A stretch of 64,000 nucleotides of DNA from Marinilabiliaceae bacterium JC040 (GTDB lineage: Bacteria; Bacteroidota; Bacteroidia; Bacteroidales; Marinifilaceae), in the NCBI GenBank assembly GCA_022496785.1, contig SNAP01000002.1:1-64000 (forward strand), read 5' to 3'. Shown here in pieces: positions 45,874-51,906 of the stretch. The notes under the pieces are model-generated. The model had not been told where the DNA came from. It saw only the letters and a list, made by a program, of their open reading frames with translations, and did not search any database. Position 1 is the first letter of the stretch. Each line of letters starts with the position of its first letter. Both the position numbers and the translations under genes were made by a program.

Positions 45874-46500
45874 TTAATCAAGATGATAAATCTCCATTAT
45901 ATTTTCTAAATCTTTTTTAAAATTAATATTTAGATCTAATAACTTACCAGATTCAATATCAAAAACCCATCCATGTATTCTGAGCCCATCTTCTCTTACA
46001 GCTTTTTGCACTTCTGCTGTCTTAAGTACATTTAAACACTGTTCTTGTACGTTTAATTCAACTAATCGTTTATGTTTTAAGTTTTGATCATGAATTAAAT
46101 TCAATTCCTTCTTATGCAATCTATAGACGTCTCTAATATTTCTAAGCCATGGATTTAGAATTCCCATATCTTCTGATTTCATAGCAGCCTTAACTCCCCC
46201 ACAATCGTAATGGCCACATACAACAATATGCTTTACTTTTAGATATATCACAGCATAATCAATAACAGACATTACACTTAAATCTATATTAGAAACCATA
46301 TTTGCAATATTTCTATGAACGAAGACATCTCCAGGAGATAACCCCATAAGTTCTTCAGCAGATACTCTACTATCGGAACAACCAATATATAATATATCTG
46401 GGTTTTGATCTTTTGAGAGATTCTCAAAAAATCTAGCATTTTCATTTAGTTTCCTATCAATCCAATTTTGATTATTTTTAAAGATTTCTTGTATTTTCAT
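45874..46500 (-). CDS. Beta-class carbonic anhydrase
   Basis: The 208-residue enzyme hydrates CO2 to bicarbonate. Zinc ligands of the beta class are all present: Cys41 in IGCSDSRV (with D43 and R45), His97 and Cys100 in VVCGHYDCGG. HRNIANMV follows the first ligand as usual. Length is normal for the family. It stands alone on the minus strand. Confidence 0.95.
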   Translation of the reverse strand: MKIQEIFKNNQNWIDRKLNENARFFENLSKDQNPDILYIGCSDSRVSAEELMGLSPGDVFVHRNIANMVSNIDLSVMSVIDYAVIYLKVKHIVVCGHYDCGGVKAAMKSEDMGILNPWLRNIRDVYRLHKKELNLIHDQNLKHKRLVELNVQEQCLNVLKTAEVQKAVREDGLRIHGWVFDIESGKLLDLNINFKKDLENIMEIYHLD

Positions 46501-46650
46501 ATTATATTATGCTTGATTAAAAAAAAAGATATTCTTACCATGTCTAATAATGAAATAAAGATAGAAAATTAAACTAGTTATGAAAGTAGGTTTATAATAG
46601 GGATTAATATATACAAGTAGATTTAGATTATACTTTATTATTAGATAGTA

Positions 46651-46686
46651 TATCAAAAAAAAGTCTCACAATAAATTGTGAGACTT
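46651..46686 (-). terminator. Terminator of the tRNA-Arg cluster
   Basis: On the minus strand the arms at 46676-46686 and 46661-46671 form an 11-bp stem (AAGUCUCACAA) with a 4-base loop, followed by a U run (complement of 46655-46662). It lies just past the last tRNA in transcription order. Confidence 0.8.
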
Positions 46687-46693
46687 CTAAAGT

Positions 46694-46771
46694 TGGTGAT
46701 CTAGCCAGGGCTCGAACCTGGGACCTACGGCTTAGAAGGCCGTTGCTCTAATCCAACTGAGCTACTAGACC
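46694..46771 (-). tRNA. tRNA-Arg (anticodon TCT), copy with encoded CCA
   Basis: The minus strand folds as a full cloverleaf: acceptor GGUCUAG/CUAGAUC (one G-U pair), anticodon stem ACGGC/GCCGU with loop CUUCUAA (anticodon UCU), T arm CCAGG-UUCGAGC-CCUGG and discriminator A at 46697. The three bases after it (complement of 46694-46696) are CCA, encoded in the gene. It is the last of three copies in transcription order. Confidence 0.95.
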
Positions 46772-46827
46772 GAACCTTATTTAAAATAATTGTGAATCTA
46801 GAAATTTCTATGAAACTTCTAAAATTG

Positions 46828-46902
46828 TGATCTAGCCAGGGCTCGAACCTGGGACCTACGGCTTAGAAGGCCGTTGCTCTAATCCAACTGAGCTACTAGA
46901 CC
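46828..46902 (-). tRNA. tRNA-Arg (anticodon TCT), second copy
   Basis: The 75-base body is identical to the neighbouring copies as far as I can read. The three bases after the discriminator read CAA, so CCA must be added by enzyme. Confidence 0.95.
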
Positions 46903-46963
46903 AATCCTAGTTTTCACACACAACCTTTCAGTTGCACATTATTTTAACATTAAAAAGAAGTAG

Positions 46964-47038
46964 TGATCTAGCCAGGGCTCGAACCTGGGACCTACGGCTT
47001 AGAAGGCCGTTGCTCTAATCCAACTGAGCTACTAGACC
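46964..47038 (-). tRNA. tRNA-Arg (anticodon TCT), third copy
   Basis: The 75-base body matches the other two copies. The bases after the discriminator read CTA, so CCA is not encoded. It is the first of the three to be transcribed. Confidence 0.95.
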
Positions 47039-47158
47039 ATATCTCTCTAATGCGATGCAAAGATGGTGCATTTTCCTTTATATTGCAAGTCTTTTAGCGT
47101 TTTTTTTCAATCTTTTTTTCATGATTTTCCTATACTATTAATATCTAGATATTTAATA

Positions 47159-48055
47159 TCATCTTTTTTTAGAGAAAAATTTTCTAGTCAATGTCTTTTC
47201 CTTCCCAATCATACATACAGAAGCTAAAACAAGAATAGATCCTATCATCATTTTTATTGAAAAATCTTCATTAAATAAACATAAGCCCATAAGAACACCT
47301 GTTAAAGGTTCAAAAGTTGATAATATAGAGGCATTACTAGGACCGATTTCTTTCATTCCTTCAAAAAATAGTAATACTGCCACAAAAGTTGCTAATAATC
47401 CTAAATTACAAATGTAAAAGATAGCACTTGAGGAAATGCTAAAATTTAATTGATTTGTAGATCCACCAATAAGTAAGAAAAGAAGTGTAGTAATTAAGAA
47501 CACATAAAAGAGTAAAGAATAGGGATTAATTTTTTTAAGATTATCATTTGCTATTGTAATTATATATATAGCATAAAATAGACCTGATATTAAAGCCCAA
47601 AAAATACCTGTATAATTAATATCAACACTAGATGTTATACTTAAAAGACCTATTCCCAATACAGAAAGTAATAAAGCTAGAAATTTAACTTGTGTCATCT
47701 TTTCTTTATAAACAATACAAGCTAGTATACATGTTATAACTGGATATACAAAATGAAGAGAACTTGCAAGCCCTGTAGATATATATTCATAGGAAATAAA
47801 CAAACTATAGGTTGTAAAGACTGTTCCAACCACAGAGGCAAGACCAATTGATAAAAATTGCTTAGCTGTAATTTTTAAATTAATTCTCTTAATAAAGACA
47901 TATAAGCCTATTAAACTAAAAGCAAAGAGATATCTATAAAATAGAAGAGATATCACATTTACGCCCTCTGAATACGAATATTTTGCAAAAGTTGGCATCA
48001 AACCAAATAGAATTGCAGATACTATAACAGTAATAAATCCTTTAAATTGTTTCAT
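47159..48055 (-). CDS. EamA/DMT-family transporter
   Basis: The 298-residue protein has about ten membrane helices in two EamA halves. The first half includes ILFGLMPTFAKYSYSEGVNV and SIGLASVVGTVFTTYSL; the second starts about residue 150 with YTGIFWALISGLFYAIYII and has LSTFEPLTGVLMGLCLFNE. The family exports amino acids, purines or other metabolites; the substrate here is not predictable. It stands alone on the minus strand, downstream of the tRNA promoter region. Confidence 0.88.
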   Translation of the reverse strand: MKQFKGFITVIVSAILFGLMPTFAKYSYSEGVNVISLLFYRYLFAFSLIGLYVFIKRINLKITAKQFLSIGLASVVGTVFTTYSLFISYEYISTGLASSLHFVYPVITCILACIVYKEKMTQVKFLALLLSVLGIGLLSITSSVDINYTGIFWALISGLFYAIYIITIANDNLKKINPYSLLFYVFLITTLLFLLIGGSTNQLNFSISSSAIFYICNLGLLATFVAVLLFFEGMKEIGPSNASILSTFEPLTGVLMGLCLFNEDFSIKMMIGSILVLASVCMIGKEKTLTRKFFSKKR

Positions 48056-48156
48056 TTTTATAAAATTTGCTGCAATTTTAAATATTAATTACTAATTTTC
48101 TAAAGAAAAAACCACAATTAATGTTAAATAAAATTTATTTAAAATAAACGAATAAA

Positions 48157-48642
48157 ATGAATAAAGAAATTATCTATTTTGGAGGAGGTTGTTTCTGGGG
48201 TGTTGAATACTATTTTCAAAAAGAATTAGGTGTAATTGAAACTAGTGTTGGTTTTATTGGAGGAAAATCTATTAATCCTTCATATAAAGATGTATGCAAT
48301 GGAAATACAGGGCATGCTGAAGTCGTAAAAGTTGTATACGACACATCAAAAACAAAATCTGAAACACTAATTAAATTGTTTTTTGAAATACATGATTGTA
48401 CACAAATTGATCGTCAAGGTCCAGATATTGGAGAGCAATATCGATCAGAAATCTTCTATACTACTGATGAACAACAAAAAGAAGCTACTAAAATAATAGA
48501 TCTTCTAATAAATAAAGGATTTGAAGTTGCTACTATACTAACAAAAGCAGACGTCTATTATAAAGCTGAAGATTATCATCAAGAATATTTTTCTAAACAA
48601 GGAGCTACTCCTACATGTCATTTCAGAACCAAAATATTCTAG
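48157..48642 (+). CDS. msrA: Peptide methionine-S-sulfoxide reductase A
   Basis: The 161-residue enzyme repairs oxidised Met residues. The catalytic motif GGGCFWGVE holds Cys12; GFIGGKSINPSYKDVCNGNTGHAEVV and DIGEQYRSEIFY are conserved family blocks. A Cys near the C-terminus (TPTCHFR) could act in recycling. It stands alone; MsrB is not adjacent. Confidence 0.96.
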   Translation: MNKEIIYFGGGCFWGVEYYFQKELGVIETSVGFIGGKSINPSYKDVCNGNTGHAEVVKVVYDTSKTKSETLIKLFFEIHDCTQIDRQGPDIGEQYRSEIFYTTDEQQKEATKIIDLLINKGFEVATILTKADVYYKAEDYHQEYFSKQGATPTCHFRTKIF

Positions 48643-48660
48643 TCTTACTTTATACTTTAT

Positions 48661-48695
48661 AAAAAAAGAACAGTATTTACATTAAATACTGTTCT
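48661..48695. terminator. Bidirectional terminator between msrA and the DEAD-like gene
   Basis: The arms agaacagtattta (48667-48679) and taaatactgttct (48683-48695) make a 13-bp stem with a tiny loop. An A run lies to the left and T-rich bases to the right. Confidence 0.8.
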
Positions 48696-48712
48696 TTCTA
48701 TTAAAGAATTAA

Positions 48713-49306
48713 TTAATAAATTAGCATATGCTGGTCAATAATCCTTTCTACCCTACTATTAATTTTTGTTCCAACAAGGATCTTTTGACATTTAGGAAGA
48801 GATTCACATATTCTTTCAACTTCAGACTGATTAGCATCAGTAATTACTTTATCTGAATTATCAATTATAAATATTTTAACACCAGTAATATTTATACCAG
48901 AAATAGCATATAATTTGTTTATTTGTTTCACAGTTCCTATAAGAATATCTGTCCCGAAATATATTTCATCTCTTTGGTCCTCTATTAAACGAGTTTCATA
49001 AGCAGTATGCACTCTCAGCGATGTATATTTTCCGTAAATAGAAAAACATTCTTCTAATTTTTCCCCTTCTTCTTTATCTGGTACAATAATCATTGCTCTA
49101 GGAACATCTTCAAATTCCTCTTTCAATTTATTTATTACTGATATTGCAATAGCTGTAGATTTTCCTTGTTCTTCTTTATCAATATAGACTACATCTCTCC
49201 CACTTTTTATAGCTGAAATATTATCTTTTTGCTTACTAATAGGTTCTTCTAGATGACTTTCTGTAATAGCTCTTTCAAGAGGCTGGTATAATCGTTTTAA
49301 AAACAT
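48713..49306 (-). CDS. Degenerate DEAD-box-like protein, first RecA domain only
   Basis: The 197-residue protein lines up with domain 1 of DEAD-box helicases but has no domain 2. The Q motif is present (EPISKQKDNISAIKSGRDVV, Gln26). The Walker A equivalent is EEQGKST (45-51), lacking the first Gly of GxGKT. Motif Ib is GTDILIGTVKQINKL. Motif II reads IIDNSDKV instead of DEAD, and motif III reads VGT. It should still bind RNA or nucleotide weakly, but helicase activity is unlikely. The gene start is normal and the sequence shows no frameshift, so it looks like a maintained short protein. Confidence 0.72.
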   Translation of the reverse strand: MFLKRLYQPLERAITESHLEEPISKQKDNISAIKSGRDVVYIDKEEQGKSTAIAISVINKLKEEFEDVPRAMIIVPDKEEGEKLEECFSIYGKYTSLRVHTAYETRLIEDQRDEIYFGTDILIGTVKQINKLYAISGINITGVKIFIIDNSDKVITDANQSEVERICESLPKCQKILVGTKINSRVERIIDQHMLIY

Positions 49307-49441
49307 ATATAATACTCGTTATTTAATTATTAATGCAAAAATAGAACTAATGATAAAGTTAAACAATTATTTCAAGCTTTCTTATAGAAGAATATTAGAC
49401 TAAAATATTTTGACATTCTTATAAATACATAATTAGATTAT

Positions 49442-49449
49442 TATCTTTG
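49442..49449 (+). promoter_or_regulatory. Likely -7 element for the MFS gene
   Basis: TATCTTTG followed by C matches TAnnTTTGY and ends only 5 bp before the ATG at 49455. If this is the promoter, the message would have almost no leader. Confidence 0.4.
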
Positions 49450-49454
49450 CTTGC

Positions 49455-50633
49455 ATGAAAAGTAATATTAAATACCTGTATCTTATTAAATTTTCAAAAT
49501 GGTTTACCTTAGTAATGCCTATTTTAATTCCATTCTATCAAAAAAGTGGATTAAGTATTACAGATATTATGCTTCTTAAAAGTATATATTCCATAGCAAT
49601 AGTAATTATGGAAATTCCATCAGGTTACTTAGCTGATATTTGGGGACGTCGAAAGACATTATTAATAGGTGGTATTTTAGCCTTTATAGGATTTGCAATA
49701 TACAGTATTACTAATCATTTTCTAACTTTCTTAATGGCTGAAATTACTTTAGGATTAGGACATTCATTAATATCTGGTGCTGATTCGGCTTTATTATATG
49801 ATAGTCTTAAGTCGATTAAGCAAGAAGATACCTACTTAAAACATGAAGGAAAATTAACTTCTTTAGGTAATTTTTCTGAAGCTATTGCAGGTATATTAAG
49901 TGGTATTATTGCAGCATATAGTTATAAATTACCATTTATAATTCAATCTGGCATTGCTTTTATAGGTATTCCATCTGCAATAATGCTACAAGAGCCTAAA
50001 AAATGTATTCATGTCGCTAAAACTAGTTATAAAAATATCTTTAATGTATTACAAAAACATATACAAAAGAATAAAATTTTAAGATTATATATACTACTTT
50101 CTTCTATTACAGGATGTGCAACTTTAAGTATGGCATGGTTTGTTCAAATTTATTTAAAAGAGATTAATTTAGATGTAGAATATTTTGGAATTATATGGAC
50201 AGTTTTAAATTTATCAGTAGGTATAAGTTCAATGAAAGCATACAAGATATATGAAAGTCTTGGTGAAAAAACAACTACAATTATAGGTATCAGTATAATA
50301 GGTATCTCTTATATAATATGTGGAATACATATATCTATTATAAATTTAATTACTCTTGTTGTATTTTACCTTGTAAGAGGTGTAGTAACACCAATATTTA
50401 AAGATTTTATAAATAAACACACTAAATCTGAAATTAGAGCGACAATACTATCAATTAGGAATTTTATTATTAGAATAATCTTTGCAATAATGGCTCCTAT
50501 ATTTGGTTATATAACTGATAATATAAACCTTAATACATCATTAATCATTACAGGAAGTGTTTTCTTTATTTTAAATCTTTATGTTGTACTTAAACTATAC
50601 AAAAGAAAAGAGGTGCATCAAATACACCCCTAA
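49455..50633 (+). CDS. MFS transporter
   Basis: The 392-residue protein has about 12 membrane helices. The MFS signature loop is GYLADIWGRRKTLLIGGIL between helices 2 and 3, and EIPSGYLADIWGRR is preceded by LLKSIYSIAIVIM. Family members with this pattern are mostly drug or metabolite exporters. The substrate is unknown. It stands alone, divergent from the DEAD-like gene. Confidence 0.88.
   Translation: MKSNIKYLYLIKFSKWFTLVMPILIPFYQKSGLSITDIMLLKSIYSIAIVIMEIPSGYLADIWGRRKTLLIGGILAFIGFAIYSITNHFLTFLMAEITLGLGHSLISGADSALLYDSLKSIKQEDTYLKHEGKLTSLGNFSEAIAGILSGIIAAYSYKLPFIIQSGIAFIGIPSAIMLQEPKKCIHVAKTSYKNIFNVLQKHIQKNKILRLYILLSSITGCATLSMAWFVQIYLKEINLDVEYFGIIWTVLNLSVGISSMKAYKIYESLGEKTTTIIGISIIGISYIICGIHISIINLITLVVFYLVRGVVTPIFKDFINKHTKSEIRATILSIRNFIIRIIFAIMAPIFGYITDNINLNTSLIITGSVFFILNLYVVLKLYKRKEVHQIHP
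50611..50632 (-). terminator. Weak terminator of the 50657 lipoprotein gene
   Basis: On the minus strand AGGGGUG and CACCUC form a short stem (one mismatch) around a loop of about nine bases, followed by UUUUCUUUU. It overlaps the 3' end of the MFS gene. Confidence 0.35.
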
Positions 50634-50656
50634 TCAAGTCCACAATATTTATTCAA

Positions 50657-51631
50657 TTAATTGATATTCACAACATCTTCACCCTTATAATCCTTACTTT
50701 CAAATTTAAAAGTAAATCCGCTATTATAATCTTTTATAAGATTCACTTTAAACTGTTTTAGATACATTCTTTTAAAACTATAAACTTCATTACAAACTTC
50801 AATATCCTCTCTATTTTCGCGTTTCCATATTATTTTTACCCTATAATCATTAGCATATTCTTTATCTTTTGTAATTTCATGAAGTCCATCCATAGAAAGG
50901 AATTTAGTAGTTTCTTTATTTTTAGGAGTAAGTACAAATTTATACGAATAATCTTTCATGCCAATCTTTTCATTAATAATCTCAACCTCAACTTCTCCCT
51001 CATCAAGGTTTAATATTTCAGCAGAAAGACCAAATCCCCATAGATATATATCAATAGGTACTGTTGTATTTTCATCCACAATGGTAACATTTGCAAGTCC
51101 ATAATATCTTTTCATTTCAAAAAAACAATTATCACTATCTTCCATTCTCATAACATCTGCATCAATATATGGAAAACTTTCTTCTGTTGAATATTGGACA
51201 ACATTTAGAGGAATAGAAACAGTATAATCTGACATACAATAAGGACCAAAAGTTTCAAATCTATCATACCTTAGGTTAATAGTATTATCATTACAAATTC
51301 TATGATTTTTTGCAAAATCTTCTATAAACGAAATGTATACTGTAATATTATCATCTTTCCTTGCTTTAAATCTTAGATTCTCTAAATCATCAGATATACA
51401 ATATGCATAGTTCTCTTTATCTTTTAGGATTTTTACTATATAATATTGTTTAATGATTTTATCAGATTTGGTTAGTATTTTAGTTGAACTAGAATGAATT
51501 ATTGGTTTTAGTCCAACCATAAACAAATCATCATTTGCATTTTCTGCATTTAATACATCTTTATCACCTGAACAACTACAAATAAAAATTGTAGATATAA
51601 CTACAAATAGCATCTTCTTTAAACGTTTCAT
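50657..51631 (-). CDS. Lipoprotein of unknown function
   Basis: The 324-residue protein has a lipoprotein signal MKRLKKMLFVVISTIFICSC (Cys 20). The mature part is rich in beta-strand-like segments (YDRFETFGPYCMSDYTVSIP, YGLANVTIVDENTTVPIDIY, KYSYKFVLT-type text) and looks like a multi-strand envelope protein. I do not recognise the family. It stands alone between the MFS gene and a probable recombinase remnant. Confidence 0.6.
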   Translation of the reverse strand: MKRLKKMLFVVISTIFICSCSGDKDVLNAENANDDLFMVGLKPIIHSSSTKILTKSDKIIKQYYIVKILKDKENYAYCISDDLENLRFKARKDDNITVYISFIEDFAKNHRICNDNTINLRYDRFETFGPYCMSDYTVSIPLNVVQYSTEESFPYIDADVMRMEDSDNCFFEMKRYYGLANVTIVDENTTVPIDIYLWGFGLSAEILNLDEGEVEVEIINEKIGMKDYSYKFVLTPKNKETTKFLSMDGLHEITKDKEYANDYRVKIIWKRENREDIEVCNEVYSFKRMYLKQFKVNLIKDYNSGFTFKFESKDYKGEDVVNIN

Positions 51632-51760
51632 ATTTATCTTTTATTAAATTTAGAAATATTTTCTTATTTAAATTATGTTACTCATACAAATTTCTGACAA
51701 TTTTACCTAAATGTAAAGGTTTATATAGCAATATTTTCTATTATCAATAAACTCTATAGC

Positions 51761-51906
51761 TTAGTTATTGAATATAACATTAGTATATAATGAAAGTGTT
51801 TTTATCTTTGATTTATCTAGATACTTATTATAATGTAACATCATAGTAGAATGATTACCCTATAACCAATGAATTGTATTAAAATTTAATGAAGGGTATA
51901 AATAAA
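51761..51906 (-). pseudogene. Possible tyrosine-recombinase C-terminal remnant
   Basis: One minus-strand frame reads PSLNFNTIHWL, a TAG, then GNHSTMMLHYNKYLDKSKI and a stop at 51761-51763. This resembles the end of tyrosine recombinases, where NTIQxLLGH is followed by S-xx-MT-xxY (the catalytic Tyr). The piece is short and has a stop where the conserved Leu-Gly-His would sit. The rest of the 51632-51992 gap holds only a terminator and AT-rich sequence. Confidence 0.35.

Follow-up and report, generated by a model that had tools for sequence, protein, structure and literature searches.

Does a gene that encodes only half of a DEAD-box helicase, with its catalytic motifs altered, represent the debris of a recent truncation, or a protein kept for some other work? 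The question is raised by an open reading frame (ORF) in the 64,000-nucleotide stretch of the Marinilabiliaceae bacterium JC040 genome analyzed here (the window). An earlier note on this DNA had proposed the second answer, with a regulatory or RNA-binding role. The gene and its two altered motifs are as follows:

48713–49306, minus strand: single-RecA1 pseudo-DEAD ORF of 197 amino acids (ORF call, Pfam, and AlphaFold2 model).
49157–49180, minus strand: altered Walker A (motif I), residues 43–50, DKEEQGKS, in which Glu46 replaces the first Gly and GKS is retained.
48851–48862, minus strand: altered motif II, residues 149–152, DNSD, with Asn in place of the catalytic Glu.

The ORF runs over 197 codons from an ATG start to a TAA stop, and its composition is ordinary for the window: GC is 0.291 and GC3 is 0.141, against medians of 0.293 and 0.154 for the 53 non-overlapping ORFs of at least 150 residues (itself included), and its codon-usage score ranks 23rd of the 53. 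Pfam places a DEAD domain (PF00270) on residues 26–177 with 59.7 bits (cut-off 26) and gives no Helicase_C match at E 0.001, nor, when Met1 is removed, at E 1; for 30 short members of the family described below, the Pfam matches reported at E 0.001 likewise do not include Helicase_C. A tblastn search of positions 46001–51800 with five domain-2 queries found no remnant of a second domain, the best hit (E 0.059) lying inside the gene itself. The sequence DKEEQGKS does not match the Walker A pattern of DEAD-box helicases (AxTGxGKT), and the SAT of motif III is missing, with GTK at residues 179–181, while the Gln of the Q motif is present as Gln26. The clean ends, the normal composition, the match to the first RecA domain only and both motif changes had been reported in the earlier note, and all of them hold.

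An AlphaFold2 model built from 19 sequences (mean pLDDT 81.0, pTM 0.84; pLDDT across the five models 61.9 to 81.0) superposes on DEAD-box domain 1 structures with Z of 22.2–23.9 and an rmsd of 2.2–3.0 over 181–197 residues (50 matches listed), and the fold as modeled is that of DEAD-box domain 1. The nearest NCBIfam models are RhlE1 (NF053711), CshA (NF053631), and RhlE. With RhlE/CshA-type helicases the window protein shares the domain 1 fold and sequence, the Q-motif Gln, GK[ST], and the first Asp of motif II, but it lacks domain 2, the first Walker Gly, the catalytic Glu, SAT, and GG, its TPGR motif is degraded, and its RhlE1 score of 71.9 falls far below the cut-off of 750. Because four features fail (the second domain, Walker A, the DEAD Glu, and SAT), it should not be filed as a DEAD-box helicase. 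DEAD-box hydrolysis and unwinding need a cleft formed by two RecA domains, which one RecA domain cannot form, and thus the window protein should not be a helicase. A defense or phage origin was also considered and rejected, since PADLOC and PHROGs returned no matches for the protein.

Whether the half-length form is recent can be judged from its relatives. A contig search with the single protein recovered no relative, and an alignment-based search recovered 22 named loci. Among the matches listed, 24 of the 56 Marinifilaceae genomes, a set that includes Ancylomarina, Marinifilum, and Labilibaculum, carry a short form, the genome under study included, with frames of 201–268 residues and E of 4.3e-40 or better; the other 23 are 38–44% identical to the window protein. 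In the other 32 genomes the matches listed are all of E 1.2e-18 or weaker, in frames of at least 296 residues, and because no short form was found in these, it is, on the evidence of the searches, dispensable in many Marinifilaceae. At the level of the order, a profile of 20 short sequences matched nine of 247 genomes at E 1e-40, all in frames of 201–243 residues, and at that of the class 34 of 395 (20 short, 14 long); there a broader profile found a short frame in at least 21 of the 395, the genome under study again included. In a phylum sample of 198 genomes searched at E 1e-36, the matches listed comprised 13 short frames, every one from the same class, and 23 matches outside it, all in frames of at least 378 residues. 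Short homologs with altered motifs, for which the earlier note had proposed to look across Bacteroidota, therefore exist, those listed all in one class. The closest to the window protein by identity is that of a Bacteroidales MAG (L066, 46%), which has the first Walker Gly. Several relatives (L041, L042, L043, L010, L017, and L066) end in an acidic, Glu/Asp-rich C-terminal tail that the window protein lacks.

Phylogenetic analysis gives the same picture. In a tree of 66 rows (53 short, nine two-domain, and four canonical, three of the last from the genome under study; the 216-residue short frame of genome G458 was left off), all 53 short rows lie on one side of one branch with support of 98/91, and the two-domain degenerate rows sit on a separate branch (99/89). 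Removing the motif I and motif II columns returned the same groups, with 97/91 for the short and 98/90 for the two-domain rows. The short clade is thus sister to a two-domain, likewise degenerate family. The window row belongs to no starred set on either tree, and its exact placement is unsure. The members of the sister family (L050, L053, L054, and L056–L061) are DEAD-like proteins of full length whose second domain is degenerate and which lack the DEAD Glu; apparently they are pseudohelicases too. In four scanned two-domain proteins, Helicase_C scored E 1.2e-4 to 2.5e-9, against 1e-31 to 1e-33 in two canonical helicases, the match in L054 being without a domain-2 stretch of its own. In the class profile search of 395 genomes, the short and two-domain forms never occurred in one genome, which by our reckoning is what chance would give. 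Replacement of one form by the other at the same locus was considered for family f152 and rejected: four short and two two-domain loci compared over about 6 kb had no common neighbor cluster of at least three members.

The motifs, read along this tree, indicate an order of loss. The Glu of motif II is present in 0 of 53 short rows, 0 of nine two-domain rows, and all four canonical rows, a distribution that takes one change. The first Walker Gly is retained in 18 of 53 short and seven of nine two-domain rows, requires at least 10 changes, and is missing in all of the aligned Marinifilaceae rows (20 of the 24 were aligned). Elsewhere the short rows are more uniform, with the Q-motif Gln in 51 of 53, the Walker Lys in 46 (lost in seven), and the first Asp of motif II in 45, the other eight having Glu. 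The motif and tree distributions together therefore indicate a single, ancient loss of the second half and repeated changes of the Walker Gly. One Marinifilaceae MAG protein (locus L078, 2816–5609; protein L023) has lost even the Walker Lys (SQKKGSS) and sits on a long branch. On these grounds we hold with high confidence that the short proteins form a conserved single-domain pseudo-DEAD family.

The earlier note allowed that relatives with a full-length helicase at the same locus would mark a fresh truncation. All 24 orthologs among the matches listed are short; the comparison is by orthology only, because the gene order around the window gene is not conserved in relatives. With neither a full-length ortholog nor a domain-2 remnant found, the window ORF is not a fresh truncation. 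Nineteen relatives of 38–44% identity align with the window protein over 197 columns with zero internal gaps, an agreement that chance does not explain.

That the gene is maintained was the central claim of the earlier note, and for the family it stands, with short orthologs in 24 of 56 genomes among the matches listed, a single clade, and purifying selection. Fourteen pairs were computed: seven at dS below 1, four at dS 1.0–2.5, one saturated, and two with the window gene. The seven close pairs, all from Marinifilaceae lacking the first Walker Gly, gave dN/dS of 0.035–0.089, and the four at dS 1.0–2.5 gave 0.020–0.047. This ratio had been proposed in the earlier note as a check, and by it the short form in these close pairs is under strong purifying selection. 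The values for the window gene itself, 0.28 and 0.52, come at a saturated dS of 1.7–1.8 and are not trusted; one of its comparisons, with L066, was ungapped and ignores a 2-residue insertion, and the window's genus is represented by one genome in the set, leaving no close relative for a direct estimate.

For the window gene itself maintenance is likely, but its copy has a longer path than its relatives. Measured to outgroup genomes, its path comes to 1.41 times the median of the family, compared with 1.23 and 1.08 for two control genes that we take to be TypA and an RhlE-like helicase, and therefore constraint on the window gene may be somewhat relaxed. Such a path would also fit lineage-specific decay, in which the family is functional elsewhere and the copy in this small genome is a relic whose frame is still unbroken. 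The Asn that forms the second residue of motif II, found in the window row alone among the 53 short rows, a C-terminus that is the shortest of 30 aligned rows, and a genome of 2.56 Mb that is the sole representative of its genus in the set all lean the same way. The frame, however, is intact and free of internal gaps against the 19 Marinifilaceae relatives, codon usage is typical, the gene has a promoter-like match and a terminator-like hairpin (described below), and another Marinifilaceae genome (G025) has a similar path (2.22 vs. 2.44). In a simulation of unconstrained substitution, which started from the present sequence and included no insertions or deletions, 192 of 2000 frames were still open once the protein had diverged by 13%, six at a divergence of 34%, and none at 42%, and thus only a recent start of decay fits. 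We consider decay unlikely.

The surroundings of the gene bear on whether it is expressed on its own. Two features flank it:

49336–49366, minus strand: promoter-like match, TTG-N20-TATTTTTG, 30–60 bases 5' of the ATG (a pattern match only).
48663–48699, no strand assigned: hairpin of 17 pairs, its T run on the minus strand, in the gap where the gene and a 161-residue ORF converge.

We take TTG-N20-TATTTTTG to be the Bacteroidota promoter consensus, and the convergent 161-residue neighbor is presumably MsrA. The pattern TAnnTTTG occurs within 100 bp upstream of 12 of the 53 window ORFs, where about 0.08 would be expected per such stretch from its density in the window. The hairpin has a predicted energy of -19.5 kcal/mol (z -6.28), none of 200 shuffles being equally stable, and is likely a terminator. 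A consensus scan of 48600–49500 reported no terminator-like site (0.2 in shuffles) and did not pick up this hairpin, and its five sigma-70-like sites compare with 7.1 in shuffles. The upstream gene is divergent and 148 bases away, and because of this arrangement, together with the promoter-like match and the terminator-like hairpin, the ORF is probably a separate transcription unit. Further along the same strand, at 46694–47038, lie three tandem tRNA-Arg(TCT) genes, identical across 76 bases, of which ARAGORN carries only the 46694–46771 copy through to the CCA end.

In relatives, no conserved partner gene was found across families among 46 short loci, although neighbors recur at the level of Marinifilum/Labilibaculum, of Ancylomarina, and of family f173. 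Locus gaps are rough, as frames were taken from the first start codon; on that footing, the upstream gene lies on the same strand in 36 of the 46 loci and at most 60 bases away in 20, the genes being various, and co-transcription is therefore possible in relatives. A response-regulator-like gene stands directly upstream on the same strand at four f173 loci (L095, L096, L098, and L102) and two f160 loci (L091 and L092). Similarity between the two kinds of regulator is confined to a receiver-like stretch of some 120 residues, at 29–36% identity, and for this reason they were not counted as one conserved neighbor.

Two of the 46 loci have a helicase gene directly upstream on the same strand, by our reading RecQ-like in L078 (7 bases away) and DEAD-box in L101 (46 bases), and these bring up the idea of a dosage competitor or accessory that, by imitating the first domain of a helicase (RhlE-like or other), would compete for the partners of that helicase or join them. 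The nearest NCBIfam models named above would suit such mimicry, as would the best full-length match in the genome under study, a 438-residue DEAD-box protein of 25% identity (one of four matches there besides the gene itself, in frames of 424–601 residues and at 24–25% identity). The helicases at L078 and L101 are, however, of different families, 44 of 46 loci have no upstream helicase, none of the neighbors of the window gene reads as a helicase, and SAT and other domain-coupling positions are lost. A competitor or accessory role is, in our view, very unlikely. The helicase set of the genome under study (G000) seems reduced, the short protein as query giving five matches there compared with 8–10 in 20 of the 23 other Marinifilaceae genomes with the short form (among the matches listed).

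If the protein is not a helicase, the residues that it keeps may point to what it does. In a matched comparison, 19 short rows were set beside 18 RhlE-like rows that, with one genome excepted, come from the same genomes. Gln26, Gly48, and Asp149 of the nucleotide pocket are conserved in both groups. Only the RhlE-like rows conserve PTRE, the Gly of the GG region, SAT, the Pro and Arg of TPGR, the DEAD Glu, and the first Walker Gly; T125 of TPGR is retained in the short rows. Eight positions (K4, K5, K34, K62, Q59, F88, G137, and R165) show conservation chiefly among the short rows, and the window protein deviates at two of them (R5 and N59).

The RNA-binding role raised in the earlier note is weakened by this pattern. 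The RNA contacts of DEAD-box proteins include residues of motifs Ia, GG, and Ib. A lone domain with affinity for RNA or the ribosome but no ATP hydrolysis would be in keeping with the modeled domain 1 fold and with the family-specific basic residues K4, K5, K34, K62, and R165. Yet the motif Ia, GG, and Ib residues conserved in the 18 RhlE-like rows are mostly lost in the 19 short rows, in which the nucleotide-pocket residues are retained, and the calculated pI is 5.4 for the window protein and 5.0–6.3 for eight of nine others when their tails are left out of the calculation (9.25 for the ninth). RNA binding thus appears to be the less likely half of that functional proposal, and as an explanation of the gene we rate it as rather improbable.

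The reading that we favor, with slightly better than even confidence, is that the window gene encodes a maintained single-domain pseudohelicase, which may hold an adenine nucleotide without hydrolyzing it and act through protein contacts. The catalytic Glu of motif II would have disappeared in a DEAD-box ancestor common to the short and the two-domain sister family, and the short family would then have lost the whole second RecA domain, once. The remaining core (the Q-motif Gln, G-K-S/T, and the first Asp of motif II) would hold ATP or ADP uncut, making the protein a nucleotide-responsive or purely structural partner of a protein or ribonucleoprotein. We are less sure of the mechanism than of the family, and put a nucleotide-holding, non-hydrolyzing domain that works through its protein surface at somewhat under an even chance. 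In the short rows Met1 stands where 18 of 18 RhlE-like rows have an N-terminal Phe, presumably the adenine-stacking one; this argues against canonical stacking of adenine in the short family. Since the Walker Lys is lost in seven of 53 rows and the first Asp is Glu in eight, nucleotide binding may not be universal. More tentatively still, these could be a family of one-domain bacterial pseudohelicases that use half a DEAD-box core to sense adenine nucleotide and that regulate a partner; along such a series the catalytic Glu would have gone first and domain 2 later, in a single event, and the first Walker Gly would have been lost several times over.

Among known proteins, the window protein most resembles a pseudohelicase, a term used for Utp25 (PMC9539457), and the feature that defines one, a helicase fold without intact catalytic motifs, is present in its predicted model. 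Utp25/Def is a yeast SSU-processome pseudohelicase with two RecA-like domains and a role in ribosome assembly, and mutation of its motifs Ia and VI is reported to have shown both to be dispensable (PMC9539457). The two have in common a DEAD-box fold without catalytic motifs and, as is shown for relatives of the window protein and likely for the window copy, a maintained gene, but Utp25/Def is eukaryotic and two-domain, the window protein bacterial and one-domain, and the likeness is one of description. In PMC4490356, "pseudo-helicase" has another sense, that of ATP-driven switches such as EcoP15I. Closer by descent are the two-domain degenerate proteins of the same class, a sister clade that has also lost the motif II Glu (nine of nine) but differs in having a second, degenerate RecA domain and, in seven of nine, the first Walker Gly. 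Among the matches listed from the openly licensed literature, yeast Utp25 was the only DEAD-box pseudohelicase, and no published study of a single-domain pseudo-DEAD family was found. To our knowledge, few bacterial pseudohelicases are known.

Dead enzymes act as regulators in other protein classes. Here, living intermediates (two-domain degenerate proteins, short proteins with an intact Walker A, and short proteins without one) would allow a direct test of how a motor becomes a non-enzymatic part, and if the sensor reading is true, they would form a natural series from enzyme to sensor. For the annotation of this bacterial group, the finding means that proteins of about 200 residues with a DEAD match need not be helicases.
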